Below, in pieces: positions 1,518 through 60,808 of a stretch of DNA of 64,000 nucleotides (position 1 is the first letter of the stretch; every line of letters begins with the position of its first letter). The DNA is taken from positions 248,001 to 312,000 of the forward strand of contig CANKUU010000001.1 of assembly GCA_947486785.1 (NCBI GenBank), written 5' to 3'. Source of the stretch: an uncultured Flavobacteriaceae bacterium (GTDB lineage Bacteria > Bacteroidota > Bacteroidia > Flavobacteriales > Flavobacteriaceae). The notes beneath the pieces are model-generated. The model worked only from the letters and a program-made list of their open reading frames with translations. It was not told the origin of the DNA and did no database searches. Made by a program: the position numbers and the translations under genes.

Positions 1518-1997
1518 ATAGCTATAAAATCAAAAGGTAAAGTTAGCAAAGTATTGGCAATACCGAATAATGAACTACGGTAATATTTTATTAAAACTTA
1601 AACTTTATGGTGCTTTATTTTTTTGTGTAAAACGACCTTCAAATTTTTACTCTTATAAAGGTGTAAGGCGCCAACAATTAGCAGTGTGTAGTAAGGTATT
1701 ATTGCGTGTGATAGAAGCGGTTAAATTTATCCTAAAAATTAGTTTTTCGGCTTTTTAGGTGTTATGCATTCAATTACCTTTTAAAAAAGGAATTTTAGAT
1801 TTACATTGTATCTATTTTTGTTGAAGTTATAGGAGCTAATCATATAATAACCTTACCCTTGTTTTATGCCAAAAACACTCAAAAAAAAGGGTTGCGCGCT
1901 GCACGAGACTTTCTGGTACATGTGATGCGAAAATTTATTTAGTACCTAGGGTGTGGTCAGAAATAATCGAATTTTTAGCATTTTATTCATTTTCTGT
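1518..1997. other. Intergenic region without a supported gene
   Basis: This 480 bp stretch between the start of ftsX and the end of the large S74 protein gene holds no reading frame with recognisable protein character. A 62-codon plus-strand frame at 1570-1758 has no family pattern and no clear ribosome-binding context. I see no convincing terminator for the gene ending at 1998. Confidence 0.5.
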
Positions 1998-44454: not shown

Positions 44455-44493
44455 TGTAAAATTTTTAGACAATATATGTAAAACTATTTTACA
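44455..44493 (+). promoter_or_regulatory. Two tandem TGT-N11-ACA dyads, probable NtrC-type enhancer
   Basis: The first is TGTAAAATTTTTAGACA (44455-44471), the second TGTAAAACTATTTTACA (44477-44493), a perfect 7-bp inverted repeat. Their centres are 22 bp apart, two helical turns, so dimers would sit side by side on one face. The pair lies in the 209-bp gap between the divergent regulator gene and tolC, 74 bp before the TTGGCA element. Confidence 0.65.
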
Positions 44494-44556
44494 TTATATT
44501 TTTGTTGGCCGATCTATAATATGTTTAAGTGCTTGATTTTCAGTATGCATTTGTTT

Positions 44557-44573
44557 TTGGCATATATATAGTG
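44557..44573 (+). promoter_or_regulatory. Sigma-54-like promoter of the export operon
   Basis: TTGGCATATATATAGTG: the -24 part TTGGCA is exact. GG at 44559-44560 is followed, after exactly 10 bases, by GT where the consensus has GC. The ATG of tolC is 27 bp after the -12 element, leaving a short leader. The -12 half is imperfect, but placement with the enhancer pair and an adjacent sigma-54 activator gene supports it. Confidence 0.5.
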
Positions 44574-44598
44574 TACCAATTGGCATACCAATATAATT

Positions 44599-45948
44599 AT
44601 GAATAAGAATTTCAGAATAATAGTATTACTAATTTTTTTAGCTCAGACCAGTATGTGGTCTCAAGAAAAATGGACTTTAAGTGATTGTATAGCCTATGCT
44701 CTAGATAATAATTTAGCATTAAACAATTTTAAGTTCGAAGAACAAGCAAACAGAGAAACCTACCGACAGTCGGTAAGAAATTTATTGCCAATAATAGAGG
44801 GGTCGTCAAGATATAATGTGAATTATGGGCGCAGTACAGACCCAAACACAAATGATGTAGTTACTACAGATTTTTTCTCGAATAACTACAATATTGCATC
44901 TAGTGTAGATCTTTTTAAAGGTTTTCAAAAAATAAATAGTATTAAGGTGGCTAAATTTTTACAAAAAGCTGCTCTAGAAGAAACAACGCATCAAAAGTAT
45001 CTTTTGGCTTTTAGCGTAAACGAAGCATTTTACGATATTAAATATTTTGAAGAGCTCGTGGCTATAGCAAAAGAGCAACAGCAGGTTTCGCAAACCAATT
45101 ATGATTTGGTAAAAAAACAAATAGAATTAGGCTTAAAGGCAGGCGCTGATTTGTATGAAGCGGAAGCATTATTATTAAGCGATAAATTGAAAGTTACCCA
45201 AAGTCAAAACAGTCTTAACAATGCTAAGCTTAAGTTAATTCAGGTTATGAATTTAGAGGGGGCAGATGACATTTCTATTCAAACAGAGCTATCCGCAGGT
45301 TTGTCTTTAGAAAGTAAGATAGAAAATAATTCTGATTCTATATTTAATAGGGCAAGAGATTTTGTTCCGCTTATTAAAGCACAAGAGTTAAAAACACAAG
45401 CTGCAAAAAAAGAAATTATGGTAGCAAGGGGTCGTTTATATCCTTCTTTGAGTTTATTTGGCAGTATCGGCACCGGCTATTTCGAAACAACTATTGATAG
45501 TGATACGGGTGTTACCATTCCTTTTAAAGATCAATTTAGAGATAATACTTTTCAAGTTGTTGGTCTGTCTTTAACGGTGCCTATTAGTTACGCTTGGTCT
45601 GCTCGATCGCGGGTAAAACAACAAAAAATAGCCTACAAGCAAGCACAGAATAATTTAGATATTCAAAAACAAGAACTACGCCAAACCATTCAACAATTAG
45701 TTCAAGAATATGAGGCATTGCAAATAGAATACCAACAAAGTGAAAAAAAATTGGAAACTCAAAATTTGTCATTTGCTATCGCTCAAAAAAAGTACGAAAA
45801 GGGCTTAATAAGTGCATTAGAGTTATTTGCAGCTAAAAATTTATATGCAAGTGCGCAGAATGAAAATCTTCAAGTACGTTTAAAATCAGAAATTAATCAA
45901 AGCACTTTAGATTTTTATAAGGGGCTACCAATTTATAACATAAACTAG
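44599..45948 (+). CDS. TolC-family outer-membrane efflux protein
   Basis: A 449-residue outer-membrane channel of tripartite exporters. Signal peptide MNKNFRIIVLLIFLAQTSMWSQ, then the duplicated TolC repeat: long amphipathic helices (WTLSDCIAYALDNNLAL at the start of repeat 1, LVKKQIELGLKAGADLYEAEALLL, and SFAIAQKKYEKGLISALELFAAKN near the end of repeat 2). First gene of the plus-strand export run; a short ORF and then the adaptor gene follow. Confidence 0.93.
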   Translation: MNKNFRIIVLLIFLAQTSMWSQEKWTLSDCIAYALDNNLALNNFKFEEQANRETYRQSVRNLLPIIEGSSRYNVNYGRSTDPNTNDVVTTDFFSNNYNIASSVDLFKGFQKINSIKVAKFLQKAALEETTHQKYLLAFSVNEAFYDIKYFEELVAIAKEQQQVSQTNYDLVKKQIELGLKAGADLYEAEALLLSDKLKVTQSQNSLNNAKLKLIQVMNLEGADDISIQTELSAGLSLESKIENNSDSIFNRARDFVPLIKAQELKTQAAKKEIMVARGRLYPSLSLFGSIGTGYFETTIDSDTGVTIPFKDQFRDNTFQVVGLSLTVPISYAWSARSRVKQQKIAYKQAQNNLDIQKQELRQTIQQLVQEYEALQIEYQQSEKKLETQNLSFAIAQKKYEKGLISALELFAAKNLYASAQNENLQVRLKSEINQSTLDFYKGLPIYNIN

Positions 45949-45951
45949 ACG

Positions 45952-46068
45952 ATGAAAGCAACAAAAATTAAAATACAAGAGCGAGCCATCAATCGCTTTA
46001 ACGGACAAAACATAAAATTTGAGCTAAAAAAAATAAGAAACGCTACCCTAAACACTAGAATAGCTTAA
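45952..46068 (+). CDS. Candidate 38-residue basic small protein between tolC and the adaptor gene
   Basis: A frame starting MKATKIKIQERAINRFNG, 3 bp after the tolC stop, and ending ATLNTRIA then TAA, 27 bp before the adaptor ATG. It is strongly basic. It fills the otherwise empty gap exactly, which suggests a real cistron, but length and composition also allow chance. No family is recognised. Confidence 0.35.
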   Translation: MKATKIKIQERAINRFNGQNIKFELKKIRNATLNTRIA

Positions 46069-46095
46069 AATTTGTGAATAAATAATTGAAATATT

Positions 46096-47346
46096 ATGGA
46101 TATAAAAATTGAAAAAAAGAAAGGCTTGCGTCTAAAGCACTACGGCTATATGGGCATAGGTTTATTGGTGCTTTTTATGGGCTATCAATTGGTTTTTGCC
46201 AGTTCTACAGCAACGTTTAGAACAGAAAAAGATAAACTATCGGTTGCTGAAGTTGTACAAGGTAAATTTGACGATTACATTACCATAAACGGAAATGTAG
46301 CTCCAATTGCTACTATTTATATGGATGCTTACGAAGGCGGTCGGGTTACCGAAAAATTGATTGAAGAAGGTGCAACAGTTAAAAAAGGAGATATTATTCT
46401 AAAATTAGAAAATATTAACCTGTATGAGCAAATTTTAAATAGTGAGAGTAATTTAGCGCTGAAGCAAAATGACTTACGATCTACAAGGTTGAGTTTTGAT
46501 TCAAGACAAGTAGAGGGGCGTAAATCTTTAGCAACGACAAGTACCGATTTACAGCGTTTAAAGCGAAATTTTGAACAAAATAAAGCACTATATGATGAAG
46601 AGCTTATTTCTAAAGAAGCCTATTTATTATCAAAAGAAAATTATGAATTAGCACAGCAGACTTTTGATATTGTAAAACTGCAAACAGAGCAAGATGATGC
46701 CTTACGTAAAACCTCTTTATCGGGCTTAGATACAGATTTGGCACGTATGCGTAAAACCTTAGGAATGGTATACCAACGTTTAGATCATTTAAATGTTCGC
46801 GCTCCTGCAGATGGTCAGCTTGGGTTTTTAGATGCAGAAATAGGACAAAATATTACGCAAGGGCAACGCATAGGACAAATAAACGTATTAACAGATTATA
46901 AAATTGAAGCTACGATTGATGAGCATTATATTGATCGTGTTAAACGAGATTTGTTTGCCAACCTCGAGCGTAACGGTAAATTATATAAACTGCGGTTACG
47001 TAAAGTATACCCCGAAGTTAGAAACGGTAAATTTAAAGTAGATTTAGTTTTTTCAGATACAAAGCCAGAAACGATACGAGCGGGTCAGAGTTATAATATA
47101 AAATTGCAATTAGGCGCATCTTCAGATGCCTTATTATTACCAAAAGGAAGTTTCTTTCAAAGCACAGGCGGGCAATGGATTTTTGTGGTAAATGACGATG
47201 GTGATGAGGCTAATAAAAGACCTATTCGCATAGGCAAGCAAAATTCTAGATACTATGAGGTTATAGAAGGTTTAGATGCCGGAGAAAAAGTAATCACTAG
47301 CAATTATGATAATTTTGGTGATGCCGAAAAAATAGTACTTAAATAA
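46096..47346 (+). CDS. HlyD/MacA-family periplasmic adaptor
   Basis: A 416-residue membrane-fusion protein linking the inner-membrane ABC part to TolC. One N-terminal membrane anchor (about 13-37), the first half of the lipoyl domain (YEGGRVTEKLIEEGATVKKGDIILKLEN split here), a long alpha-hairpin coiled coil (about residues 115-225), the second lipoyl half (LNVRAPADGQLGFLDAEIGQ), and a beta-barrel plus membrane-proximal part (AGQSYNIKLQLG, VVNDDGDEANKRPIRIG). It works with the ATPase and permeases that follow. Confidence 0.93.
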   Translation: MDIKIEKKKGLRLKHYGYMGIGLLVLFMGYQLVFASSTATFRTEKDKLSVAEVVQGKFDDYITINGNVAPIATIYMDAYEGGRVTEKLIEEGATVKKGDIILKLENINLYEQILNSESNLALKQNDLRSTRLSFDSRQVEGRKSLATTSTDLQRLKRNFEQNKALYDEELISKEAYLLSKENYELAQQTFDIVKLQTEQDDALRKTSLSGLDTDLARMRKTLGMVYQRLDHLNVRAPADGQLGFLDAEIGQNITQGQRIGQINVLTDYKIEATIDEHYIDRVKRDLFANLERNGKLYKLRLRKVYPEVRNGKFKVDLVFSDTKPETIRAGQSYNIKLQLGASSDALLLPKGSFFQSTGGQWIFVVNDDGDEANKRPIRIGKQNSRYYEVIEGLDAGEKVITSNYDNFGDAEKIVLK

Positions 47347-47408
47347 AAAAACAACCTTTTTGGGCGGGCTAAAAAATGCCTATGCCTTAATAAATAAACC
47401 ATTTACAA

Positions 47409-48104
47409 ATGATAACAATTCAGAATTTAAAAAAGAGTTTCAAAACTGAGGAAGTCGAAACCCTAGCCTTAAACAATGTAAATCTTAAAGTAGAAGATGG
47501 CGAATTTGTGGCTATTATGGGGCCATCTGGTTGCGGTAAATCTACCCTGCTAAATATTATTGGCATGCTTGATAACCCCTCTGAAGGCAGTTATAATTTT
47601 GCGGGCAATGAAGTAGGCGGTTTAAAGGAAAACCAACGCACACAGCTACGAAAAGGTAATTTAGGCTTCGTATTTCAAAGTTTTAATCTAATCGATGAGC
47701 TTACGGTTTATGAAAATGTAGAGTTACCACTCATTTATCTTAAAATGGCTAAGGCAGAGCGTAAAAAAAAGGTGATGGCTGTTTTAGAACGAATGAAAAT
47801 TGCACATCGAGAAAAGCATTTTCCGCAACAGTTATCAGGGGGTCAGCAGCAACGTGTAGCTATTTCTCGCGCTGTGGTAACGAACCCTAAACTAATTCTT
47901 GCAGATGAGCCTACGGGTAATTTAGATTCTAAAAACGGAATTGAGGTGATGAATTTGCTTACCGAGCTTAATCAAGAAGGAACAACTATAGTAATGGTAA
48001 CACACTCTGATCGTGATTCGCACTATGCGCATCGTGTAGTTAATTTGTTTGATGGTCAAATTGTAACCGAAAGTAAGAATAGAGCCATAGGTGAAATGGT
48101 TTAA
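47409..48104 (+). CDS. MacB/LolD-type ABC transporter ATPase
   Basis: A 231-residue nucleotide-binding subunit. Walker A GPSGCGKST near 39-47, Q-loop VFQSFNLI, signature LSGGQQQRVAISRAV near 141-155, Walker B KLILADEPTGNLDS, H-loop MVTHSD. The sequence type (TIQNLKKSFKTEEVETLALN, LKENQRTQLRKGNLGFVFQ) is that of ATPases that drive MacB/FtsX-like permeases by mechanotransmission. It lies 62 bp after the adaptor gene and 352 bp before the first permease, whose spacer holds a large hairpin. Confidence 0.94.
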   Translation: MITIQNLKKSFKTEEVETLALNNVNLKVEDGEFVAIMGPSGCGKSTLLNIIGMLDNPSEGSYNFAGNEVGGLKENQRTQLRKGNLGFVFQSFNLIDELTVYENVELPLIYLKMAKAERKKKVMAVLERMKIAHREKHFPQQLSGGQQQRVAISRAVVTNPKLILADEPTGNLDSKNGIEVMNLLTELNQEGTTIVMVTHSDRDSHYAHRVVNLFDGQIVTESKNRAIGEMV

Positions 48105-48456
48105 GAAGTTTATTCATCAATCAATAATCAGTAGTAATCAATCAAATTAGTACTCTAATCAAGTACTGCTTTTACTAAATAGTATGTTTATTTAGTATCT
48201 AAAAATCGTTCGGAGAAACCTTGTTGCTTACAAGGTTTACTCCACGATTAATAGTGTTGGTTTTACCATTTATTTGTGGGGTATGTATAATGACTGAAAT
48301 ATAAATTGGTCATTAATATTTCTATAGCCCGAGAGAGTTTGGCTTTACCTGTATCTGTTCAAAAAATGTTAAGCAATTTAAGCCGCTGTAGTTGGCTTCG
48401 TAAAAGGATTAGGTGCCGAGTGATTTATAAAATAATCAATCAATAAAATAGTAACT
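48105..48456 (+). other. Intergenic region with one large hairpin, upstream of the permease run
   Basis: 352 bp without a gene. Apart from the hairpin at 48204-48249, I see repeats of AATCAATCAA at both ends (around 48120, 48140 and 48433) but no TGT-N11-ACA pair and no clear TTGGCA-N-GC promoter. It probably carries regulatory sequence for the five permease genes. Confidence 0.5.
48204..48249 (+). repeat. Long hairpin in the leader of the permease genes
   Basis: AATCGT, GGAG and AAACCTTGT on the left (48204-48224, with TC unpaired at 48210-48211) pair with ACAAGGTTT, CTCC and ACGATT on the right (48230-48249, with one A unpaired). That gives 19 base pairs around a TGCTT loop. No T tract follows, so a simple terminator is unlikely. 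It could control expression between the ATPase and the permeases, or stabilise an RNA end. Confidence 0.7.
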
Positions 48457-50874
48457 ATGTTAAAAAATCATTTAAAAGTAGCTTGGCGGAGTATTAAAAA
48501 TGACAGACTTTTTGCATCAATTAAAGTTGGTGGGTTCGCCATTGGTATTGCTGCTTGTTTATTAATAAGCCTATTCATTAAAAACGAGCTGAGTTACGAT
48601 CAGCATTATCAAAATAAAAATAGAATATATAGGGTTGTTCTTCAAGGCATGCAAAATGGAGAACAGATGAAAGGGGTTCATTTTCAATTGCCTTTTGCCG
48701 ATGTTTTGCAAACAGATTTTCCTGAGGTAAAGAAGGCTGGTAAAATTAATACGTCTGAATTGTTTGGTGCTGGTAAAAGAGGGTTTCGCTCGGCTAATAA
48801 TCCTCAGAATAGTTTAGAAGAAGGATTTGTATTTGCAGATCAAGAGGCTTTTGATATATTAGAAATTGCCTTAGAACAGGGTAAACCACAGGAAGCATTA
48901 ACTCAACCCTCAAGTATTGTCATTTCAAGAGCTAAGGCGCAAAAATATTTTCCAAATACTAAAGCTTTAGGACAAACTATTATTTTAGATAATGATACCT
49001 CAAAACCCTATACTGTTACTGGGGTGATGAAAGATCTTCCTAAAAATATGCATTTGCAGTTCGATTTTTTATTGCCAATTGAAGATACCAATGCCAGCTG
49101 GACAAGCCATAACTATATTACCTACCTGCTACTAGATGAAAATGCCAATGTAGTTGAGTTACAAAAGAAAATGTTATCTATTGTTGAAAATTTCGTGATA
49201 CCTGCACAAAAAGAACGTGGCAGAGCCCCAGATTTTTTAGCTGTTTTAAAGACCTTAAATTATAAGCTACAACCGATTACCGACATTCATTTACATTCAG
49301 ATTTAAAAATGGGTGATGGCCTTGTACATGGTGACCTTAGATTTGTATGGTTGTTTGCTGCCATTGCGGGGTTTATACTCCTTTTAGCGGTTATAAATTT
49401 CATTAACTTATCTACTGCAAAATCGGCCAACAGAGCAAAAGAAGTTGGCTTAAGAAAGACGGTTGGGGCATTTAAAAATAATTTAGTGACCCAATTTTTA
49501 ATCGAATCGGTACTTTATAGTGTGCTTTCATTTGTCTTAGGATTGCTACTTGCTTGGTTATTGTTGCCAATGTTTAATTCACTTGCTGAAAAAACGATTG
49601 AAGTACCTTGGACAGCTTGGTGGTTTGCACCAATAATTATGCTTTCTGCACTGCTAGTTGGTTTACTAGCAGGCCTATACCCTGCATTTTATTTGTCGGC
49701 TTTTAAACCAGTAGATGTGCTCAAAGGCACACTAAGTTTAGGTGGTAAAAGTGGTAAATTACGTAGTGGCTTAGTTATAGTTCAATATACAACTTCTGTG
49801 GTATTAATTATCGGTACTTTAATTATCTACAAGCAGATGAATTTTATTATGAACAAAGAGCTTGGCTATGATAAAGAGCAGCTGCTAATTCTTGAAACAG
49901 CAGGTGCTTTTGGTAACAAAGCTGCTAATTTTAAAGAGCAATTAGAGCAACTACCTCGTGTAAAGAGTGTTAGTTTAAGTGATTATTTGCCTGTTGAGGA
50001 AACAAAAAGAAACGGAAATACATTTAGAAATCCTTTAAAAGGTAATGAAGGTGAAAGTGTGTTAGGTCAAATATGGCGTGTAGATTACGATTATATCAAA
50101 ACCTTAGGCATGCATTTGATAGCAGGACGAGATTTTTCTCGAGACTTTGCTACCGATGCTATAAATGCGATTATTATCAATCAAAAAATGGCCAATGAGT
50201 TAGGGTTTGTTGATCCTATAGGAAAATATGTGGATAATAATGGTCAAGATTTAAAGGTAATTGGTGTCGTTGAAAACTTTCATTTTAAATCGTTGAAAGA
50301 AGATATAAGTCCATTGAGTTTAGTTCTAGGAACCAGTGCAACTTCTATATCGGTAAAATTAGAAAAAGGCAATATCAACGATGCATTAGCTGCTATTAAA
50401 ACGATTTGGAACAAAACAGTACCTAACCAATCTTTTAGTTATACTTTTTTAGATCAGCAGTTTAGCCATATGCATGCCGATATTAAACGTATGGGAAGCA
50501 TCTTTAATAGTTTTGCCCTCATAGCTATACTAGTTGCTAGTTTAGGTTTGTTTGCACTTTCAGCATTTATGGTAGAGCAACGCAAGAAAGAGATTAGTAT
50601 TAGATTGGTCTTAGGAGCACCCTTTAAAAGCATTTATCAGCTGTTAACGCTCGACTTTATGAAATTAATTTTTCTTTCAATTGCTATGTCAATTCCAATT
50701 GGTTGGTATGTTATGTCAAAGTGGTTAGAAGATTTTGCTTATAAAATTAGTATCGACTGGAGTGTGTTTGCAACTGCGGGGTGTATTGCTATAGGTATTG
50801 CTTTGTTAACCATAAGCTATCAATCTATAAGTGCTGCATTAATAAAACCTCTAAAAACGCTTCAAACTCAATAA
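48457..50874 (+). CDS. MacB/FtsX-like ABC permease, copy 1 of 5
   Basis: An 805-residue permease with eight predicted helices in two FtsX-type halves. Helix 1 (about 21-41) is preceded by MLKNHLKVAWRSIKNDRLF. A large periplasmic MacB_PCD domain follows. The first FtsX block has RAKEVGLRKTVGAF near residue 326, then a second periplasmic domain from about 455. The last FtsX block has RKKEISIRLVLGAP near 709. The two cytoplasmic motifs are the contacts to the ATPase. Members move lipopeptides, toxins or lipoproteins by a mechanical cycle. Substrate unknown. Confidence 0.92.
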   Translation: MLKNHLKVAWRSIKNDRLFASIKVGGFAIGIAACLLISLFIKNELSYDQHYQNKNRIYRVVLQGMQNGEQMKGVHFQLPFADVLQTDFPEVKKAGKINTSELFGAGKRGFRSANNPQNSLEEGFVFADQEAFDILEIALEQGKPQEALTQPSSIVISRAKAQKYFPNTKALGQTIILDNDTSKPYTVTGVMKDLPKNMHLQFDFLLPIEDTNASWTSHNYITYLLLDENANVVELQKKMLSIVENFVIPAQKERGRAPDFLAVLKTLNYKLQPITDIHLHSDLKMGDGLVHGDLRFVWLFAAIAGFILLLAVINFINLSTAKSANRAKEVGLRKTVGAFKNNLVTQFLIESVLYSVLSFVLGLLLAWLLLPMFNSLAEKTIEVPWTAWWFAPIIMLSALLVGLLAGLYPAFYLSAFKPVDVLKGTLSLGGKSGKLRSGLVIVQYTTSVVLIIGTLIIYKQMNFIMNKELGYDKEQLLILETAGAFGNKAANFKEQLEQLPRVKSVSLSDYLPVEETKRNGNTFRNPLKGNEGESVLGQIWRVDYDYIKTLGMHLIAGRDFSRDFATDAINAIIINQKMANELGFVDPIGKYVDNNGQDLKVIGVVENFHFKSLKEDISPLSLVLGTSATSISVKLEKGNINDALAAIKTIWNKTVPNQSFSYTFLDQQFSHMHADIKRMGSIFNSFALIAILVASLGLFALSAFMVEQRKKEISIRLVLGAPFKSIYQLLTLDFMKLIFLSIAMSIPIGWYVMSKWLEDFAYKISIDWSVFATAGCIAIGIALLTISYQSISAALIKPLKTLQTQ

Positions 50875-50896
50875 TAAGCCTGTTTACAAAAATATC

Positions 50897-53323
50897 ATGA
50901 TTAAATTATTTTTTACAATTGCCACAAGGTACCTCTTAAAAAACAAGCTATACTCGTTTATAAATATTTTTGGTTTAGCGATTGGGGTAGCATCTTTTAT
51001 TTTAATTATGCTATACGTCGATTATGAGCGTAGCTATGATAAATTTGAAGGTTCGCAGCATGTATATCGGGTGTATATGGATTATTTAGAAGGTAATTCC
51101 TTTGTGCCTGGCGACGCGCAAACCTACAATCTTTCTGGCCCAACCCTTAAAAGAGAATTTCCTGGGGTTTTAGATTATGTTCGATTTTATTACATAGAGA
51201 AAGCCACTTTTGTATTAGGAGATCGAATTTTTGAGCAACCCATGGGGTCTATGGCCGACGCTTCATATTTTAATGTATTTGGTTATCCTTTGTTGAAAGG
51301 AAATCATAAAACTGCACTTAGTGAGCCCAATACCATAGTGCTATCTCAAACATTAGCAAAAAAACTGTTTGGTGATCAAAATCCAATGCAAAAGACAGTA
51401 ACCGTAGTTTTAGATGGTGATGAGGTTGTACTTACCGTAACCGGACTAATGAAAGATATTCCGAAAAACGTTCATTTTAGAAACAACTATTTAATCTCGT
51501 ATGCGACCGAAAATACTTGGGATTTTTTTGACGAAGCTCAAACAAAACTCAATTTTAATATGAACAATTATTATACCTATTTAAAGATTGATGAAAATGC
51601 CAATATTGCCTCGTTAAAAGATAAGATTATAAATAGTGATTTTGATGAAGATGAAGAAGAACGCCATAATATAGAGCCTATTGAAGACATTCATTTGTAT
51701 TCTGATAAACCTTATGAAGTAAGTGTTAATGGTAGTGCGACTAGAATTAAGTTTTTATCGGCTATTGCTTTTATCATTTTAATTCTCTCTTGGCTTAATT
51801 ATATTAACCTATCAACCACTAAATCTTTAGAAAGAGCAAAAGAAACAGGTATTAGAAAAGTAGTAGGCGCTCACCGTTGGCAGTTGGTATTACAATCTAT
51901 AATGGAGTCTACTTTGTTAAATACAATTGCAATAATGGTAGGTATTATTGCTAGCTTTATGTTGCTGCCGATTTATAATAGTTTAACAGAAAATAAGCTT
52001 GAGATTAATCTTTCTAGTTTTACAAGCTTATTTCCGATTTTTGGTTTTATTTTTCTTGGAATGTTTTTAGCCGGCTTATACCCTGCATTTTTACTTGGGG
52101 ATTATAAAGCTACTAAAGCTTTAAAGGGCGAAGTACGTACTTCTAGTAAAGGCGTTTTAATTCGAAAAGGATTAATTGTAACCCAGTTTTTGGCAACTAT
52201 TATTTTAATTATTGGCACTATGGTGGTTACCAAACAAATTCATTTTTTGCAAAACCAGCCAATTGGTGCAGAACTAAACCAAATTGTTGCTTTAAAAGGT
52301 GAGATAGTTACAAACAAATCAGACTCTTTACTTAGTAACGATTATAAGTTGCTAGCAGATGAACTTAAAGATTTGCCTTTTGTTGAAAACATAACGTTTG
52401 CACAGACATACCCTGGCGATAGTTTTGATAATCTAGGTTCTAGTCGTGGTATTACTCTTCCGAATGGAGTACAAAATTTAAGTACCGTTTACTACGTGTA
52501 TGACGTGCAGCCCGAATATTTTGAGTTATTAGACATTCCTTTTGTGGTTGGTAACACATTTTTGCCCAATGATAGTGGTGATAGCAATCAAATAGCAGTA
52601 AATGAAACATTTGTAAAAGAGATGGGATTTAATTCTCCAGAAGAACTAATTGGAAGAAAACTTAAGTTTTGGGGTAACAATGAATGGGTTGTAACAGGGG
52701 TATTTAAAGATTATCATCATTTTGGATTAAAAGATAAGGTGCTTCCGCTACTTGTAAAGCATCAAAGAGATGTAAATAATCTACTAGTAAAATTGGATCC
52801 AACCGCAACATCAACAGCTGGATTTACTACGGCAATAGATCAAATTCAAAATAAATGGAATCAAATATTTACTAAAAGCACCTTTAATTATGCTTTTTTA
52901 GATAAAAAGTTTGAGGCACATTATAAAGAAGATAAAACCTTTGGAAAAGCCTTTCAAGTGTTTACCGTCTTGGCCATATTGATTGCCTCATTAGGTCTTT
53001 TTGGATTATCTTCTTACACCTGTGTACAAAGAAGAAAAGAAATTGGTATTAGAAAAGTTAATGGGGCAAGCATAACGCAAATTCTTAAACTACTTAATAT
53101 AGATTTTATTAAATGGGTGGGTTTAGCTTTTATTGTTGCGGTACCTATTGCCTGGTATGTTATGAATAAATGGTTAGAAGGTTTTGCATACAAAACCGCA
53201 ATGAGCTGGTGGATATTTGCTTTTGCTGGTATTAGTGCTTTAGCGGTTGCCATTTTAACAGTAAGCTGGCAAAGTTTTCAGGCTGCAATAACCAATCCGG
53301 TTGACGCTTTAAAAGACCAATAA
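50897..53323 (+). CDS. MacB/FtsX-like ABC permease, copy 2 of 5
   Basis: An 808-residue paralogue starting 22 bp after copy 1. Coupling motifs are RAKETGIRKVVGAH near residue 313 and RRKEIGIRKVNGAS near 712. The first periplasmic domain has the family pattern FNVFGYPLLKGNHKTAL and IVLSQTLAKKLFGDQNP. It begins MIKLFFTIATRYLLKNKL, diverging from the MLKN/MFKN opening of the other four. Most probably a half of a homo- or hetero-dimeric permease using the same ATPase. Confidence 0.92.
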   Translation: MIKLFFTIATRYLLKNKLYSFINIFGLAIGVASFILIMLYVDYERSYDKFEGSQHVYRVYMDYLEGNSFVPGDAQTYNLSGPTLKREFPGVLDYVRFYYIEKATFVLGDRIFEQPMGSMADASYFNVFGYPLLKGNHKTALSEPNTIVLSQTLAKKLFGDQNPMQKTVTVVLDGDEVVLTVTGLMKDIPKNVHFRNNYLISYATENTWDFFDEAQTKLNFNMNNYYTYLKIDENANIASLKDKIINSDFDEDEEERHNIEPIEDIHLYSDKPYEVSVNGSATRIKFLSAIAFIILILSWLNYINLSTTKSLERAKETGIRKVVGAHRWQLVLQSIMESTLLNTIAIMVGIIASFMLLPIYNSLTENKLEINLSSFTSLFPIFGFIFLGMFLAGLYPAFLLGDYKATKALKGEVRTSSKGVLIRKGLIVTQFLATIILIIGTMVVTKQIHFLQNQPIGAELNQIVALKGEIVTNKSDSLLSNDYKLLADELKDLPFVENITFAQTYPGDSFDNLGSSRGITLPNGVQNLSTVYYVYDVQPEYFELLDIPFVVGNTFLPNDSGDSNQIAVNETFVKEMGFNSPEELIGRKLKFWGNNEWVVTGVFKDYHHFGLKDKVLPLLVKHQRDVNNLLVKLDPTATSTAGFTTAIDQIQNKWNQIFTKSTFNYAFLDKKFEAHYKEDKTFGKAFQVFTVLAILIASLGLFGLSSYTCVQRRKEIGIRKVNGASITQILKLLNIDFIKWVGLAFIVAVPIAWYVMNKWLEGFAYKTAMSWWIFAFAGISALAVAILTVSWQSFQAAITNPVDALKDQ

Positions 53324-53380
53324 TACGGATTTTATTTAAAATTAATTTTACCTCAATAAATCAATCAAAAAACGAATAGA

Positions 53381-55813
53381 ATGTTTAAGAATTATTTAAA
53401 AATAGCATTTAGAAGCCTTAAAAAACAAGCCTTCTTTACTTTTTTAAACACTTTTGGCTTGGCCATAGGTATGGCAGGTGGCTTATTAGTCGCTTTGTAT
53501 GTGTATGATGAGTTAACATTTGATACTATGTTTACTGATGCCCACCGTATTTATCGTGTAGATGCGGATATAAAATTTGGAGGTGCTGAAATGCATTCCG
53601 CTGAAAACGCTCCGCCGATGGCAGCAGTTTTAAAAAATGATCTTCCAGAAGTAGAAAACGCTGTGAGAATACGAGATGTGGGAAGTGTTTTAATTAAAAA
53701 AAGCGAATCTACCGATAATACAAAAGAGGAAAAGGTGGCCTATGCAGATGCCAGTTTCTTTGATATGTTTGGTTTAACACTCTTAGAAGGCGATGCTAAA
53801 TCGGCATTAGAAGAGCCTAATACCATGGTGCTTTCAAAAGCAACAGCGTTAAAATATTTTGGCACACGCAAAGTAGTCGGTGAAACGCTAGTGCTAAACA
53901 ATAAAGAGGTGTATACGGTAACTGGTATTGTAGAAGATTTGCCAAAAAAATCATTTTTAAGAACGCATAAAATTTTCTTGGCTATGGCAGGCAATGAAGC
54001 TTCAAAAGAGGAGATTTGGGGTAGTCTTAATTATTTTACTTTTATCAAACTTATTCCTACCGCTCATGAGTCAACCATAAAAAAACATCTTGAAGGTATT
54101 TTAGACAAGTATATGCTTCCGTGGGCGCAAAAATATTTTCCAGGTATGAATAAAGAATCTTTTTTAGCTTCGGGTAATTATGTGCGCTATTACACAATAC
54201 CGCTTACAGATATACATTTATATTCAAATCGAGATACAGAGCTAAGCGCAAATAGTACCATTCAAAATGTATATATTCTTTCGTTTATTGGGCTTTTTCT
54301 AATCCTTTTGGCAACGGTTAATTTTATGAACCTTTCTACGGCGTACTCGCTTAAAAGAGCCAAAGAAGTTGGAATTAGAAAAACTTTGGGTTCAAATAGG
54401 GGGCATCTTATGGTTCAGTTTTTAACCGAGTCGGGTTTAGTAACATTTATTGCTATGCTTTTTGCTGTTGCTTTTGCCTTTTTTGCACTTCCTTTTTTTA
54501 ATAGCATGGCGGGCAGAGAAATTATTTTTCCCTTTACTAAACCTTTCTTTTGGATAATTTTAGTAGCCATGTCGTTGATTTTAGGATTACTCACCGGTAG
54601 CTATCCTGCTTTTTTTATGTCGCAATTTTTACCAATAAAAAGTCTTAAAGGCGGTTCAAATACGAGCGAAGGTGGATCTAAAGTACGCAACACACTAGTG
54701 GTATTTCAATTTGCTATTTCGGTATTCTTAATTGTAAGCACACTTGTGGTTTTTAAGCAATTAAAATTTATTCAAGCAAAAGATGTTGGTTTTTCTAAAG
54801 ATCAAGTATTAGTAGTTAAAGATGCCTATGCTGCGGGGGATAAACTACAAACCTTTAAACAAAAAGTGGCGAATTTAGGTAGTGTAAAGAGCGTAGCGGT
54901 TTCTAGTTTTATGCCAACACCATCGGCAAGAGGTAATAGCTCTTTTTTTGAACAAGGTTCAATGGCACAAGAACATGCTATTCAAATGCAAAAGTGGAAA
55001 GTAGATGAAGATTATTTACAAACACTTAATATGAAATTAATTGCTGGAAGAAATTTTAACGCTGCTCGCATTTCTGATTCTACTGCAGTTATTGTAAATG
55101 AAGCAACATTAGCAAATTTAGGGGTGTCTGCAGAGCAGGCTTTAGGCAAAAGAATTACAGAAGATGTAGATTCAGAAAACCCAGTTTTTTATGATGTAAT
55201 TGGGGTGGTTAAAAATTTTCATTTTAAATCGTTACGAGAAAATATTGAACCCTTAGGTCTCTTTATGCAACCATCAAGGGGTTCTGTTGCGGTTAAACTT
55301 GAAGCCAGTAATTTTACTGCTACTATTGGTGCCATTCAAAATATTTGGCAAAAAGTTGCACCTGGACAGCCTTTTAATTATGCTTTTTTAGATGACGAAT
55401 TTAATAGAACCTATGAAGCAGAACAGCGGTTAGGCAAGATATTTATAACATTTACTATTCTTTCTATTCTCATTGCTTGTCTTGGCTTATTTGGATTAGC
55501 TGCTTTTAATGCCGAAAAAAGAACAAAAGAAATTGGGGTAAGAAAGGTTTTAGGGGCTACCGTAAGTCAAATTTCATATCGGCTTACGGTAGATTTTTTA
55601 AAATTGGTAATGGTGGGCATTCTTTTTTCTTTGCCTGTCGCATGGTTTGCAATGAATAGGTGGTTACTTGACTTCTCTTATCGTATAAATATTGGTTGGC
55701 AGGTTTTTGTTTTAGCAGCTGCAATTGCTCTTGCAGTAGCTATTATAACGGTAAGTTATCAAAGTATAAAAGCAGCCCTTTCAAACCCTGTAAAAAGTTT
55801 AAAAACGGAATAA
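53381..55813 (+). CDS. MacB/FtsX-like ABC permease, copy 3 of 5
   Basis: An 810-residue paralogue, 57 bp after copy 2. Opening MFKNYLKIAFRSLKKQAFF; coupling motifs RAKEVGIRKTLGSN near 326 and RTKEIGVRKVLGAT near 713. Periplasmic features include FFDMFGLTLLEGDAKSAL and KNFHFKSLRENIEPLGLFM. It resembles copy 4 in its ends (VSYQSIKAALSNPVKSLKTE against VGYQAIKAAVVNPVKSLRSE), a sign of local duplication. Confidence 0.92.
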   Translation: MFKNYLKIAFRSLKKQAFFTFLNTFGLAIGMAGGLLVALYVYDELTFDTMFTDAHRIYRVDADIKFGGAEMHSAENAPPMAAVLKNDLPEVENAVRIRDVGSVLIKKSESTDNTKEEKVAYADASFFDMFGLTLLEGDAKSALEEPNTMVLSKATALKYFGTRKVVGETLVLNNKEVYTVTGIVEDLPKKSFLRTHKIFLAMAGNEASKEEIWGSLNYFTFIKLIPTAHESTIKKHLEGILDKYMLPWAQKYFPGMNKESFLASGNYVRYYTIPLTDIHLYSNRDTELSANSTIQNVYILSFIGLFLILLATVNFMNLSTAYSLKRAKEVGIRKTLGSNRGHLMVQFLTESGLVTFIAMLFAVAFAFFALPFFNSMAGREIIFPFTKPFFWIILVAMSLILGLLTGSYPAFFMSQFLPIKSLKGGSNTSEGGSKVRNTLVVFQFAISVFLIVSTLVVFKQLKFIQAKDVGFSKDQVLVVKDAYAAGDKLQTFKQKVANLGSVKSVAVSSFMPTPSARGNSSFFEQGSMAQEHAIQMQKWKVDEDYLQTLNMKLIAGRNFNAARISDSTAVIVNEATLANLGVSAEQALGKRITEDVDSENPVFYDVIGVVKNFHFKSLRENIEPLGLFMQPSRGSVAVKLEASNFTATIGAIQNIWQKVAPGQPFNYAFLDDEFNRTYEAEQRLGKIFITFTILSILIACLGLFGLAAFNAEKRTKEIGVRKVLGATVSQISYRLTVDFLKLVMVGILFSLPVAWFAMNRWLLDFSYRINIGWQVFVLAAAIALAVAIITVSYQSIKAALSNPVKSLKTE

Positions 55814-55834
55814 TTATTTATAATTGAATTTATT

Positions 55835-58195
55835 ATGTTTAAAAATTATTTAAAAATCGCTTGGAGAAATTTACTTAGAAATAAGAGCTTTTCACTCTTA
55901 AATATTATAGGACTCTCTATTGGCTTGGCAGTAACCGCAATTATTACAATTTGGATAAATTTTGAAATGGGTTACGATCGCTTTCATGTAAATATTGATA
56001 GAGTTTATGAGGTTAATAACATATACCCAATTGGGGATGAAATTCTAACATGGAACTCTACACCTAAGGTAATGGCTGAGGTCATTAAAAAAGATTATCC
56101 AGAGGTAGAAGCAGTTTCTAGATATTATTTTAATACTTCTTTTTTGTTTGCGAAAGATGAAAAAAGAATAAAATCAACAGGAACTATTGTAGATAGCGAT
56201 TTTTTAAAAATCTTCACTTTTCCTTTGCTACAGGGTAACCTAAACACCGTTTTTGAAGATGTAAATTCGGTGGTTATTACAGAAACATTTGCTAAAAAAT
56301 TATTTGGTAGTAAATCGCCAATAGGGCAACTAGTTACCATTGATAATAGTGATAGTTTTAAGGTAACTGGCATACTAAAAGATTTGCCAAAAAATTCTAG
56401 TTTTAATTTTGAGTTTTTGCTTCCCTGGGCTTATTTACATCAAAAGGGTTGGAGTGATGATAACTGGGGTAATAATTCAGTAGCTACTTATGTTATGCTA
56501 AAAAAGGGGACTGATTTTAAATCATTTTCTAAAAAGATTAAAACTTTAAGAGAGCGATACGATAAGGGGTCTCCTAAGATGAAAACCATGTTGTATCCTT
56601 ATTCACGTACTTGGTTGTACGGCGAATTTAAAAATGGAGTAGAGACTGGTGGAAGAATTGATATTATTCGAATGTTTGGTATTATAGCAGCAATCATTTT
56701 AATAATAGCCTGTATTAATTTTATGAATTTAAGTACGGCTCGTAGCGAGAAACGCGCTAAAGAAGTAGGTATTCGTAAGGTTATTGGGGCAGAGAAAGGG
56801 GCGCTAATTGCTCAATTTTTAGGCGAATCAATATTAATTTCTTTTCTAGCAGCATTACTCGCCTTTATATTTATTTTGGTGACTCTACCTAGTTTCAGTA
56901 TTTTAATTGACAAGCCTATAGCGCTAGACCTAACTAATAGTTCTTTTTGGTTAGCAGCATTAGGTATAATTATCCTTACAGGAATATTAGCTGGCAGTTA
57001 CCCAGCGCTATACCTATCTGCTTTTAAACCATCAGCCGTATTAAAAGGAACTTTTAAAAAGATGAATAGTTCAATTACACCTCGCAAAGTTTTAGTGGTG
57101 CTACAATTTGCAGCAGCAATTATTTTTATTACCGCTAGTATTATTGTTATGCAGCAACTCAATAAAGTGCAAGACCGGCAAGCAGGGTATAATAAGAATA
57201 ATCTTATTTATACAGAAATTGAAGGCGATATGGAAAAGAATTATAACCTTATTAAAAATGAATTGTTAAGGTCTGGCGCTGCAAGTTCGGTAACCAAAAC
57301 AAACGCACCTATGACCGAAAGTATGAGTAATACTTGGGACATAAAATGGGAAGGCAAAGACCCGAACGATAAAACCTTAGTTAATCGTTTTATTGTCGAT
57401 GATGCAATTATTAAAACTACAGGTATGCAACTTATTGCGGGTCGCGATTTTGATTTAAAAAAATATCCTACCGATTCTACTGCAGTTATCTTAAACGAAT
57501 CGGCAGTAAAATTGATGAATTTTAATGATCCAGTTGGTAAAATTATAAAAGATTTCGGTATCGACTGGCATGTGATAGGAGTAGCTAAAGATTTTGTGCT
57601 AAAATCACCTTTTCAAAAAATTGAACCTTTGGTTATTCAGGGTGCAAAAGGTTGGTTTAGTTTTATTCATATAAAACTAAATAAAGAAGTGAGCACATCA
57701 GAAAATTTAGCTGTAATAGAGGCTATTTTTAAAAAGTATAACCCAGAGTATCCGTTTTCTTATGAGTTTATAGATTCGGCGTATGCCAGTAAATTTGATG
57801 ACCAAAAACGAATTGGGCGGTTGGTTAACCTATTTACCTTGCTTACTATATTTATTTCATGTTTAGGTTTATTTGGTTTAGCAAGCTATATGGCTGAAAA
57901 TCGAATTAAAGAAATTGGTATTCGAAAAGTGTTAGGTGCTTCGGTTCAGAGTATTACCACCCTTTTATCCATAGATTTTTTAAAATTAGTGCTTATAGCT
58001 ATTGTTATAGCGGTTCCAATTTCTTGGTATCTTACAAGCTCGTGGCTAGAAGAATTTGCTTTTAGAATTACAATTTCTTGGTGGATATTTTTAGCGGCTG
58101 GTGTTTTGGCTTTAGTTATTGCATTTTTTACGGTGGGGTATCAGGCGATAAAAGCGGCAGTAGTTAACCCGGTAAAAAGTTTAAGAAGCGAATAG
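55835..58195 (+). CDS. MacB/FtsX-like ABC permease, copy 4 of 5
   Basis: A 786-residue paralogue 21 bp after copy 3. It is somewhat shorter in its first periplasmic domain (FLKIFTFPLLQGNLNTVF). Coupling motifs RAKEVGIRKVIGAE near 306 and RIKEIGIRKVLGAS near 689. It is the last gene of the tight cluster; a 198-bp gap with regulatory features follows. Confidence 0.92.
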   Translation: MFKNYLKIAWRNLLRNKSFSLLNIIGLSIGLAVTAIITIWINFEMGYDRFHVNIDRVYEVNNIYPIGDEILTWNSTPKVMAEVIKKDYPEVEAVSRYYFNTSFLFAKDEKRIKSTGTIVDSDFLKIFTFPLLQGNLNTVFEDVNSVVITETFAKKLFGSKSPIGQLVTIDNSDSFKVTGILKDLPKNSSFNFEFLLPWAYLHQKGWSDDNWGNNSVATYVMLKKGTDFKSFSKKIKTLRERYDKGSPKMKTMLYPYSRTWLYGEFKNGVETGGRIDIIRMFGIIAAIILIIACINFMNLSTARSEKRAKEVGIRKVIGAEKGALIAQFLGESILISFLAALLAFIFILVTLPSFSILIDKPIALDLTNSSFWLAALGIIILTGILAGSYPALYLSAFKPSAVLKGTFKKMNSSITPRKVLVVLQFAAAIIFITASIIVMQQLNKVQDRQAGYNKNNLIYTEIEGDMEKNYNLIKNELLRSGAASSVTKTNAPMTESMSNTWDIKWEGKDPNDKTLVNRFIVDDAIIKTTGMQLIAGRDFDLKKYPTDSTAVILNESAVKLMNFNDPVGKIIKDFGIDWHVIGVAKDFVLKSPFQKIEPLVIQGAKGWFSFIHIKLNKEVSTSENLAVIEAIFKKYNPEYPFSYEFIDSAYASKFDDQKRIGRLVNLFTLLTIFISCLGLFGLASYMAENRIKEIGIRKVLGASVQSITTLLSIDFLKLVLIAIVIAVPISWYLTSSWLEEFAFRITISWWIFLAAGVLALVIAFFTVGYQAIKAAVVNPVKSLRSE

Positions 58196-58223
58196 TTCAA
58201 ATTATTTTTTTAGAATTTTAGAG

Positions 58224-58262
58224 TGTCAAATATTTATACAGAATATGTATAAATATTTGACA
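58224..58262 (+). promoter_or_regulatory. Second pair of TGT-N11-ACA dyads, inside a 16-bp perfect inverted repeat
   Basis: TGTCAAATATTTATACA (58224-58240) and TGTATAAATATTTGACA (58246-58262) each fit TGT-N11-ACA. Their centres are 22 bp apart, the same spacing as in front of tolC. They are also reverse complements of each other, so the whole block is one palindrome with 16-bp arms. It lies 73 bp before a TTGGCA element, against 74 bp at tolC. Confidence 0.65.
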
Positions 58263-58324
58263 AATAAAAGGATGAGTTAATTACTTGTTAGATGTAACTT
58301 AATGATAATAAAACAGTTGTGAAT

Positions 58325-58341
58325 TTGGCATAAAAATCGAA
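58325..58341 (+). promoter_or_regulatory. Sigma-54-like promoter before the fifth permease
   Basis: TTGGCATAAAAATCGAA: exact -24 TTGGCA with GG at 58327-58328, then 10 bases, then GA where the consensus has GC. It is weaker than the tolC element in the -12 half but in the same position relative to an identical enhancer layout. The ATG of the permease is 53 bp further on. Confidence 0.45.
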
Positions 58342-58393: not shown

Positions 58394-60808
58394 ATGTTAA
58401 AAAATTATTTCAAAATAGGCTTACGTAATCTCTTAAAAGATAAACTTTTTACGCTTTTAAATATCATTGGCTTATCGGTTGCATTTGCTGTTGCTATTCT
58501 TTTATCGATGGCTGCATTTTTTGATCTTTCTTTTGATCGCTTTCATGAACATGCTGATACGATTTATGAAGTGTACAGGCAAGAGCAATCGCCAAAAGGG
58601 CCAGAAGCTAGTACATCACAGCCCGCGCCTTTAGCAGGGGTATTAAAATCGGAGGTGCCAAGTATTAAGAAAGTATCAAGACATTTACAGCAGCAAGCCG
58701 TTTTTTCATTTAAAGAAAAGCAACTTAGCTTAGATGTGGTTTGGGTAGATGAAGATTTTTTCAACATTTTTACATTTCCTGTTAGTTCTAAAAGAACCAA
58801 CCAAATTTTAGCAGATCAGTCTAGTATTGCAATTACTGAAGCAACAGCGCAGAAGTTATTTGGTGAAAGTAATCCTCTAGGTAAAACAGTACATGTTTTA
58901 ATTGAAGGTAGCGAAGAGCCTTTTACCGTAGGCACTGTTATTAGTAATATTCCTGAACACAGTAGTTTAAAATTTGAGGCCGCCTTACGATTTGAAAAAC
59001 ATCCAAATTACCAAGAAAATAAAGAATCTTGGGATACGAACTATCATTCAATTTTTGTGCAAATGGATGATAAGTCATTACCCGATCAATTTGAAAAAAG
59101 TACTCGATCTTTAGTTGATTTAAATTATGTTGAAGATATTGCAAATATGAAGCGCGATGGTGTTGTTGCCAATAGCGACGGCCGTTTTATTCAATTTAAG
59201 TTGTTGGCGCTAGAAGATATACACTTTGTAAATTTTAGAAAAGGTTATGCCGAAGTGTCGAGAAATACGGTGTTTCTAATTCTTGCTATTGCTTTTTTAA
59301 TTATAGGTATAGCTTGTGTTAATTTTATAAATATGAGTGTAGCAAAGAGTAGTCAACGCATGCGAGAAATTGGCATGAGAAAAACTCTTGGAGCTCAAAA
59401 GAGGCACTTGTTTTTTCAGTTTTGGAGTGAGAGTTTAGTTGTATTTATTATTGCGGTAGGTATCGGGGCATTTTTAAGCGCTTTACTCTTAGATGATTTT
59501 AAAACTTTGTTTAAAACAGCGGTTTCTTTTGATATCATTCGTTCGCCTAAGGTGATACTATCGTTTATCGGCTTTATACTTTTTATTACCCTATTGGTAG
59601 GGGGGTATCCTGCTTTACTATTAAGCAAGTTAAATGTAATACAATCCTTAAAAGGTAAGTTAGAAAAATCGGGTAAAAATAGGGTGCGAAATGCACTTAT
59701 GATTATACAATTTGCTATCGCTATAATACTAATTAGCAGCACCATTGTATTGAGAGAACAACTCTATTTTATGAGAAATAAAGACTTAGGTTTTAATAAA
59801 GAACAAGTAATTTCCTTTCCCTTAGATGGAAAAAAAGACGGCTATCAAGTACTTGATTTGTTACGAAACGAGCTAAAAGGAAATCCTGATATTTTAAGTG
59901 TTTCTGGTGCAGACAATAATTTAGGAATTGGTAGAGATGGCAGTAGATTTAGAAGTATTTTTGGTTTTGAGTATAAGAACCGTATAGTAAAAACGAATTT
60001 TTTGGCGGTAGACTATGATTATTTAGAAACCTTAGATGTTAAACTTGTTGAAGGTAGAGGCTTTAAAAGAGGTTTTGCTAGCGATAGCTTAAGCGTAGTT
60101 ATTAATGAAGCTATGGCACGCGAGTTAGGAGAAAAAGATCCGCTTACAGCTTACGTTCAGGTAAATGATAGCACTAATTATCCTGTTATTGGGGTGATAA
60201 AAGACTATAACTTTGATAGCTTAGATAATGCTATTGCCCCCTTAACCCTGTTTCTTAATAAAGATTATAAACTGTATTATGGTTATGTTAAAGTAGCTCC
60301 TAAAAATTTAGTAAAATCTTTAGATGCCATAAAAAGTGCTTGGGCAAGTATAGAGCCCAATTCGATTTTTTTAGGCTCTTTTTTAGATGAGAATATTAAT
60401 CGTACGCTAAAAAAAGAAGAAAAGATGACTACAATAATTTCTGCAGGCTCTTTAATTGCTATTGCACTCAGTTGTATAGGTTTATTTGCTATATCATTAC
60501 TAATGGTAGCACAAAGAACAAAGGAAATTGGTGTGCGCAAAGTAATAGGAGCAAGCGTTAGTTCTATTACTTATTTACTCACCAAAGATTTCTTAAAATT
60601 GGTTACTATTTCTTTTTTAATCGCAGCTCCTGTTGCATGGTGGTTGATGTCATCTTGGTTAAAAGAATATCCTTTTAAAATTGAATTGAAGGCTTGGTTT
60701 TTTATTATTGCTGGTTTAGTTGCTTTTGGCATTGCTATTTTAACAGTGGGTAGCAGAACCATAAAAGCAGCAATGCAGAACCCAGTTGATAGTTTAAGAG
60801 CAGAATAG
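58394..60808 (+). CDS. MacB/FtsX-like ABC permease, copy 5 of 5
   Basis: An 804-residue paralogue with its own promoter region. Opening MLKNYFKIGLRNLLKDKLF; coupling motifs RMREIGMRKTLGAQ near residue 321 and RTKEIGVRKVIGAS near 707. It differs most from the others in the first periplasmic domain (LSLDVVWVDEDFFNIFTFPV, ILADQSSIAITEATAQKLFG). The second ATPase gene follows 271 bp downstream, so copy 5 and that ATPase could form a unit distinct from copies 1-4. Confidence 0.92.
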   Translation: MLKNYFKIGLRNLLKDKLFTLLNIIGLSVAFAVAILLSMAAFFDLSFDRFHEHADTIYEVYRQEQSPKGPEASTSQPAPLAGVLKSEVPSIKKVSRHLQQQAVFSFKEKQLSLDVVWVDEDFFNIFTFPVSSKRTNQILADQSSIAITEATAQKLFGESNPLGKTVHVLIEGSEEPFTVGTVISNIPEHSSLKFEAALRFEKHPNYQENKESWDTNYHSIFVQMDDKSLPDQFEKSTRSLVDLNYVEDIANMKRDGVVANSDGRFIQFKLLALEDIHFVNFRKGYAEVSRNTVFLILAIAFLIIGIACVNFINMSVAKSSQRMREIGMRKTLGAQKRHLFFQFWSESLVVFIIAVGIGAFLSALLLDDFKTLFKTAVSFDIIRSPKVILSFIGFILFITLLVGGYPALLLSKLNVIQSLKGKLEKSGKNRVRNALMIIQFAIAIILISSTIVLREQLYFMRNKDLGFNKEQVISFPLDGKKDGYQVLDLLRNELKGNPDILSVSGADNNLGIGRDGSRFRSIFGFEYKNRIVKTNFLAVDYDYLETLDVKLVEGRGFKRGFASDSLSVVINEAMARELGEKDPLTAYVQVNDSTNYPVIGVIKDYNFDSLDNAIAPLTLFLNKDYKLYYGYVKVAPKNLVKSLDAIKSAWASIEPNSIFLGSFLDENINRTLKKEEKMTTIISAGSLIAIALSCIGLFAISLLMVAQRTKEIGVRKVIGASVSSITYLLTKDFLKLVTISFLIAAPVAWWLMSSWLKEYPFKIELKAWFFIIAGLVAFGIAILTVGSRTIKAAMQNPVDSLRAE

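Follow-up and report, generated by a model that had tools for sequence, protein, structure and literature searches.

Export genes and their control regions

The window analysed here, a 64,000-nucleotide stretch of an uncultured Flavobacteriaceae bacterium (assembly GCA_947486785.1, contig CANKUU010000001.1, positions 248,001 to 312,000), contains a locus of export genes in which two promoter regions each carry a pair of TGT-N11-ACA dyads and a sigma-54 promoter element. Coordinates are those of the window unless preceded by the label of another stretch. On the plus strand, the locus comprises a TolC-family outer-membrane channel (44599..45948; Pfam OEP, 2.3e-49), a HlyD/DarC-like periplasmic adaptor (46096..47346; Pfam HlyD_3), a MacB/LolD/DarD-like ATP-binding cassette (ABC) ATPase (47409..48104; Pfam ABC_tran) and five tandem MacB/FtsX permeases, all assigned by Pfam. 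Permease 1 (48457..50874; MacB_PCD and FtsX, two stretches each) is followed by permeases 2 (50897..53323), 3 (53381..55813) and 4 (55835..58195), and by permease 5 (58394..60808), which has a predicted enhancer and promoter of its own.

Upstream of tolC, on the minus strand and transcribed away from it, lie a 455-amino-acid NtrC-family response regulator and sigma-54 activator (43022..44389; Pfam Response_reg, Sigma54_activat 2.9e-67 and HTH_8) and a 450-amino-acid sensor histidine kinase (41606..42958; Pfam HATPase_c 3.6e-22), the pair that an earlier note on this DNA had placed beside the first promoter region. At its N-terminus the kinase carries two hydrophobic stretches, with hydropathy windows inside residues 6-30 and 26-52 and scarcely a loop to separate them. 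Pfam also gave a PAS match, which at 0.012 is weak and below the cut-off.

The operator dyads lie at 44455..44471 and 44477..44493 before tolC, and at 58224..58240 and 58246..58262 before permease 5; none is assigned a strand, and all four were recovered by direct reading, by a genome pattern scan and by a matrix of such sites. Within each pair the dyads are 22 bp apart, with centres at 44463/44485 and 58232/58254, and a TTGGCA starts at 44557 and 58325, just as the earlier note had described. Its distances of 74 and 73 bp run from the second dyad centre to the TTGGCA centre; measured to the first T, they are 72 and 71 bp. The claim that the two regions match in architecture was upheld, and the accompanying claim that their sequences differ held only in part, as both fit the loose consensus TGT(A/C)(A/C)A...TT(G/T)(G/T)ACA at most positions.

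The -12 half of a sigma-54 element is present after both TTGGCA motifs, so that full -24/-12 elements fitting TGGCAY-R-N4-T.G, with the GG-N10-G spacing of sigma-54 promoters, can be read on the plus strand at 44558..44571 (tolC; kept in relatives) and 58326..58339 (permease 5). A second TTGGCA, which the earlier note overlooked and which is added here, is present at the tolC promoter (44580..44585, plus strand), 23 bp past the first and over the predicted transcription start. The permease-5 promoter also carries, at 58307..58319 on the plus strand, an element of the integration host factor (IHF) type, found by eye at a conserved offset with one mismatch to the consensus WATCARNNNNTTR. The genome itself encodes sigma-54 (PF04552, E 2.7e-52, contig C17) and two HU/IHF-family genes.

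Rarity, conservation and anatomy of the sites

The genome of origin comprises 3.57 Mb in 136 contigs and is 99.8% complete. The exact double-dyad pattern was found at two places in it, both in the window, and at none with the reversed control. Allowing one mismatch gave 5 forward and 9 control matches in the genome, and allowing two gave no more matches in the 64-kb window than in shuffled sequence; the signal is thus confined to the exact pair. A matrix trained on 73 sites, with both window sites held out, scored these at 43.2 (tolC) and 36.2 (permease 5) on the forward strand, compared with -1.0 for the next-best position in the window and 5.6 for the best of 20 shuffled 64-kb sequences. The scan of related genomes that the earlier note had proposed gave a similar picture, with 24 distinct places in 14 genomes of the genus for the dyads alone (reversed control, 2) and 21 matches in 9 of 80 family genomes for the dyads with the promoter pattern (control, 0). 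The relaxed sigma-54 element, (T/C)GGC(A/T)Y-N5-T.G, was present at 22 of the 24 genus places; the others were L276, a chance match with a matrix score of -17, and L274.

A scan of genome contigs for the activator, in which SFTDAKED was one of the retrieving peptide patterns, yielded 461 relatives, of which the best 80 (75-88% identity) were used. Their loci come from, among others, Maribacter, Zobellia, Cellulophaga, Muricauda/Allomuricauda, Arenibacter, Pricia, Aquimarina and other Flavobacteriaceae or Bacteroidetes, and include 76 near-full-length homologues of the kinase. The activator-tolC region could be assessed in 77 of them (L066, L088 and L093 end before the intergenic region), and between the two genes the exact pattern was present in 73 and a matrix match in 76. 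The dyads are therefore retained in nearly all the relatives assessed that keep the locus, a point on which the earlier note had staked its proposal. Across all 80 loci (1.59 Mb) there were 87 matrix matches above 15 bits, 44 of them belonging to the training set. The sigma-54 element was present at all 87 in its relaxed form and at 85 in its strict form, 90-91 or 100-102 bp off in the tolC/permease direction; the 43 matches from outside the training set, counted separately, all had it, at 100-102 bp. The full pattern was also present in 30 of 32 activator-bearing genomes scanned, a subset of those from which the 80 loci come (control, 0). A scan of 395 genomes of the phylum with the strict pattern gave a match in three, all of the same family (control, 0). 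As 23 of the 41 family genomes in this sample belong to one genus (g88), none of them matching, the sample says little on frequency.

Sites from the 80-family-genome and 32-genome scans, 88 of them distinct, were read up to 2.4 kb downstream. Four reverse readings (k6, k10, k45 and k66; distances 96, 91, 86 and 93), which are dyad pairs serving a permease on the opposite strand, were dropped to leave 84 sites, 76 of them distinct; k21 (L154), labelled "activator" and a reverse reading of a tolC site, was retained. The IHF test further excluded the sister-activator site k0 (75 sites), and the matrix excluded k0 together with both window sites (73). The search pattern required only a TGGCAY 45-80 bp past the dyads and did not include the -12 half. 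The T and G of that half were nevertheless present, unprompted by the query, in 99% and 96% of the 84 sites, and TGGCAY-R-N4-T.G was fitted by 73 of the 76 distinct sites and by none of the four reverse-read decoys.

The distance from dyad start to TTGGCA fell into two classes, 100-103 bp (57 sites) and 89-91 bp (26 sites), with one site at 85 bp and none at 92-99 bp, though 83-118 bp was allowed. All 35 tolC promoters are in the longer class, and the 44 permease promoters occur in both. The two classes differ by a single turn of the helix, an indication that proteins touch each other on a fixed face of the DNA. An IHF-type element with at most one mismatch was observed 19 bp before the TGGC in 37 of 75 sites. 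The highest count among 1000 shuffles was 3, and the element peaks at the same offset in both distance classes. The second TGGCAY is a feature of tolC promoters, being repeated 23-24 bp downstream in 61 of 73 relatives' tolC promoters and in none of 44 permease promoters. It lies over the expected start, with a -12 half in only one case, and could be a sigma-54 decoy or hold site, or reflect a constraint on the early transcript or leader.

The dyads and the activator tend to occur together. Among the 80 family genomes, an activator of at least 60% identity was found in 11, and the full pattern was present in 8 of these compared with 1 of the other 69. By eye, the three misses are due to a CGGCA variant, one dyad mismatch and a contig end, and in the single pattern-bearing genome lacking an orthologue the site adjoins a sister activator. 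Within the genus, 3 of the 14 genomes were without the exact pattern: G010, in which the matrix still matched the site (L055), and G003 and G005, for which the search turned up no close activator.

Sister activators (44-49% identity) were present at 14 loci, where they are oriented divergently from an adaptor gene. At 10 of these a script recovered dyads with the 22-bp spacing. In nine, the distance to TGGC is 91-92 or 101-102 bp; the remaining one, L233, was scored at 111 bp, against the second of two TGGCAC motifs, the first being at 100 bp by eye. At the other four the script found nothing, and variant letters or a degenerate TGGCA were seen by eye. The operator letters of the sister sites differ (TGTTCG...CGAACA in the clearest case), as does the recognition helix, which reads RQTLYNK in 13 of 13 activators of one group and R(A/T)(A/S)LYRR in 14 of 14 of the other. 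The geometry is thus kept while letters and helix change together, as direct recognition by the adjacent activator predicts.

Genes served by the sites

The 88 sites precede a permease in 44 cases, tolC in 35, an adaptor in one (the sister system), an activator in one (the reverse reading) and no recognised target in seven. These seven consist of the four reverse readings of permease-serving sites, two sites before a GIN-domain secreted protein and one unassigned site. The 24 genus places include nine activator-tolC regions, eleven places before a permease and one before an ATPase; at L270, no match was found before the contig end.

Eleven permease sites lying away from the main locus in four genomes were looked at more widely (L281, L283, L284, L285, L287, L289, L290, L291, L292, L293 and L294). 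The 20-kb stretches around them were searched with ten window proteins at E <=1e-8. A TolC match was found in none of the 11 stretches. An adaptor match was present in one stretch (21% identity) and an ATPase match in one (28%), in both cases over 6 kb away from the site, and a second permease was present in three stretches. The dispersed permeases would presumably depend on the ATPase encoded in the main locus. In the genome of origin the regulon is apparently limited to the two window promoters; a MacB domain on contig C12, in an 875-amino-acid frame beside an ATPase match, has no site and is probably an ordinary MacB.

Several further sites were noted. A dyad pair precedes a secreted protein of ~200 amino acids in three genomes (L288:9254-9859, L295:10288-10893 and L282 near 9175-10038). 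Pfam identified a GIN domain (DUF2807) in the one relative tested, over the first 120 residues, and the others look alike by eye; in the longer stretch of L274 (L295), the gene after the site reads like this same protein. Two of these three sites have a sigma-54 element that departs from the consensus. The protein is a possible cargo or partner of the exporter. At L296:9041-9697 (G011:C5), a site precedes a second gene for an ATPase, which lies near further permeases and shares 52% identity with the ATPase of the locus. Larger permeases (frames of 860-872 amino acids) follow a short gene at L288:4486-7435 and L295:12878-15792, the short gene being by eye what we take to be PadR-like. A matrix site is also present at L288:1760, before a frame at 1988-3016. 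A site at L286:9903 scores high on the matrix (37) and is followed by a matching sigma-54 element and by no recognisable gene; the 120 residues of the next long frame (10561-11088) that were run against Pfam gave no match.

Regulatory reading, alternatives and known systems

The sites, their geometry, their conservation and their gene linkage are direct readings of the DNA. On this basis, we consider it highly probable that the two regions are NtrC-type sigma-54 control regions, and that they join with the adjacent activator, the TolC-adaptor-ATPase engine and varying permeases in one regulon. The proposal of the earlier note that one regulator fires both promoters is supported by the conservation, by the co-occurrence of activator and pattern, and by the further permease genes under the same sites. 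Since relatives carry this arrangement in front of permeases at other places in their genomes, the regulon would consist of the engine plus a varying permease set, and the same signal before scattered transporter genes points to one two-component system as the probable trigger of the entire export machinery.

Two activator dimers would bind side by side on one face of the DNA, the 22 bp being two helical turns, at operators centred ~120 and ~98 bp before the start (predicted at ~44583 and ~58352). Phosphorylation of the regulator by the adjacent membrane kinase would lead to assembly of an AAA+ ring, which a bend assisted by an IHF/HU-type protein could bring to the sigma-54 polymerase at the -24/-12 element. 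One signal would then switch on tolC, the adaptor, the ATPase and permeases 1-4 and, separately, permease 5. Binding by the adjacent activator, looping, the operon limits and the sharing of one ATPase are putative parts of this scheme, and the substrate may be a peptide or an envelope-active compound.

Several observations weigh against this reading. The tolC promoter in the window has no good IHF-type match at the conserved offset. A tandem-size permease on contig C27 of the same genome lacks a site both in the 7 kb upstream of it and in the rest of the 20 kb that were read, so that not all tandem permeases belong to the regulon. At locus L119 (Allomuricauda sediminis), a natural case of loss, the activator, kinase, tolC, adaptor, ATPase and permeases are kept and the activator-tolC interval of nearly 800 bp has no matrix match. 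Both activator-bearing genomes without the full pattern are Zobellia, whose tolC promoter reads CGGCA where TGGCA is expected, and L270, a genus site outside the 84-site set, has a distance of 99 bp, between the two classes. The sigma-54-contact loop of the activator reads GSFTDA and not the canonical GAFTGA; working variants of this loop occur, and the placement in the NtrC family is thus by domains only. In the accessible text of PMC12316311, GAFTGA is called invariant. Cotranscription of permeases 1-4 with the engine would have to cross the 352-bp gap between the ATPase and permease 1 and is putative. A hidden promoter in this gap was considered and set aside, with no dyad pair or TGGCAY seen and no matrix match; the permease-1 homologue of Maribacter antarcticus (L188) has its own site. 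Finally, at least three other AAA+ activators were present among 11 activator-search matches in the genome of origin, and G001, a genome 57% complete, has a site and no close activator found.

The last two observations would be expected if the dyads were operators of another NtrC-family activator and the neighbouring one controlled something else. The presence of other AAA+ activators means that the pairing of dyads and activator rests on position and co-occurrence. Both point to the neighbouring gene: the site lies between activator and tolC in nearly all testable loci, and the pattern follows the orthologue, with its single occurrence elsewhere beside a sister activator. A paralogue at C1:232602 was tried as the master regulator; apart from the paralogue itself, nothing in its 4.3-kb stretch matches any of the ten window proteins, and the genome contains no third exact site. 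Control by another activator is therefore considered unlikely.

Still less probable is that the permease-5 dyads form a terminator or RNA hairpin at the end of permease 4 and resemble the tolC site by coincidence. The dyads at 58224-58262 are a perfect 17-bp inverted repeat of each other, with arms matching at 17 of 17 bases, 29 bp past the stop codon. However, no T run follows the repeat, its held-out matrix score is 36-40, and a sigma-54 element follows 101 bp on. Across the 79 tolC and permease sites, counting this one, mirror-image dyad pairs occur in just 2, and the arms agree at 10-13 of 17 positions in 62; the hairpin was rejected, as relatives do not keep the mirror symmetry. That AT-rich intergenic DNA yields TGT/ACA dyads and TTGGCA often enough by chance is very improbable, since the one- and two-mismatch matches at control level and the two control matches in the genus stand against the exact counts in the genome, genus and family, the retention in relatives and the consistent kinds of genes downstream. 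Recent copying from one promoter to the other was also considered and is not needed, as the tolC site spans many genera and other sites precede many different permeases.

Paired enhancer sites with an IHF bend are characteristic of sigma-54 promoters of the NtrC/glnA type. The one-regulon system proposed here shares with that type a response-regulator AAA+ activator with a Fis-type helix-turn-helix, paired palindromic operators ~100-120 bp upstream, and a TGGCAY-N5-T.G element with an IHF-type element between. It differs in its operator letters (TGT(A/C)(A/C)A-N5-TT(G/T)(G/T)ACA), 22-bp spacing, two distance classes, export-gene targets and the GSFTDA activator loop. The promoter type is classical, and the dispersed permeases are the unusual feature.

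The transporter was compared with curated NCBIfam families, which for the permeases covered permeases 1 and 5. The best matches of the adaptor and ATPase were DarC (198 bits, cut-off 450) and DarD (300 bits, cut-off 375) of the DarBCD darobactin exporter (NF038007, NF038008, NF038010), and permeases 1 and 5 also match DarB (141 and 175 bits, cut-off 700). The adaptor passes the general RND_mfp cut-off (149 compared with 95). The ADOP family (TIGR03434), in which permeases likewise occur unaccompanied by an ATPase, as implied by the "orphan" in its name, matches permease 1 over its length (318 bits) and permease 5 over residues 280-804 (247 bits), against a cut-off of 622 bits. Nothing on the ADOP family was found in the accessible text of PMC3174227. 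No window protein reaches the DarB, DarC, DarD or ADOP cut-off. DarBCD is described as an ABC transporter with a membrane-fusion protein in the accessible text of PMC9055067. The window locus differs from it in having five permeases, TolC and a two-component sigma-54 regulator; daropeptide enzymes were not searched for. It differs from ADOP in that its permeases are tied to a sigma-54 regulon and one ATPase/TolC locus.

The closest published observation is that of PMC12316311 (PLoS One 2025), in which, in the text accessible, predicted sigma-54 promoters are enriched before COG0577 FtsX-like permeases in gamma-Proteobacteria, Opitutia and Bacteroidia, and activator specificity is stated to be unavailable for some of its organisms. 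Its main text, as far as accessible, contains "upstream activat", "UAS" and "IHF" zero times each, and no operator pair, activator or regulon for FtsX-like permeases was seen in it. In the accessible text of PMC3162934, sigma-54 is regarded as a central controller of the bacterial exterior. No description of the activator, operator, regulon, dispersed permeases or second TTGGCA was found in the open-licence literature as far as its text was accessible. The regulon proposed here can be read from DNA at almost no background, and could therefore mark the permeases, and perhaps the cargo, of a common engine. The two distance classes and the re-lettered sister activators would provide a natural series for studying helical phase and the evolution of operator specificity at enhancer-dependent promoters. 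To our knowledge, sigma-54 regulons in Bacteroidota are little charted.

Kinases of this build beside FtsX-type transporters often sense via the transporter, as in Bce modules, and by analogy we would guess that the present kinase may do so. A wider model, which we put forward tentatively and regard as somewhat improbable as a whole, would have a shared engine with scattered interchangeable permeases, each with its own enhancer and promoter. The kinase, having no outside domain, would read the state of the transporter and set the number of permeases; the sister activators would represent re-lettered, insulated parallel exporters, and the half-element at the start site of tolC promoters only would set the level of the engine apart.

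Two further frames are present past permease 5. A 398-amino-acid frame on the opposite strand (62583-63779) gave no Pfam match up to E 0.5, and an ABC ATPase frame of 220 amino acids (61080-61742) lies ~270 bp past permease 5.

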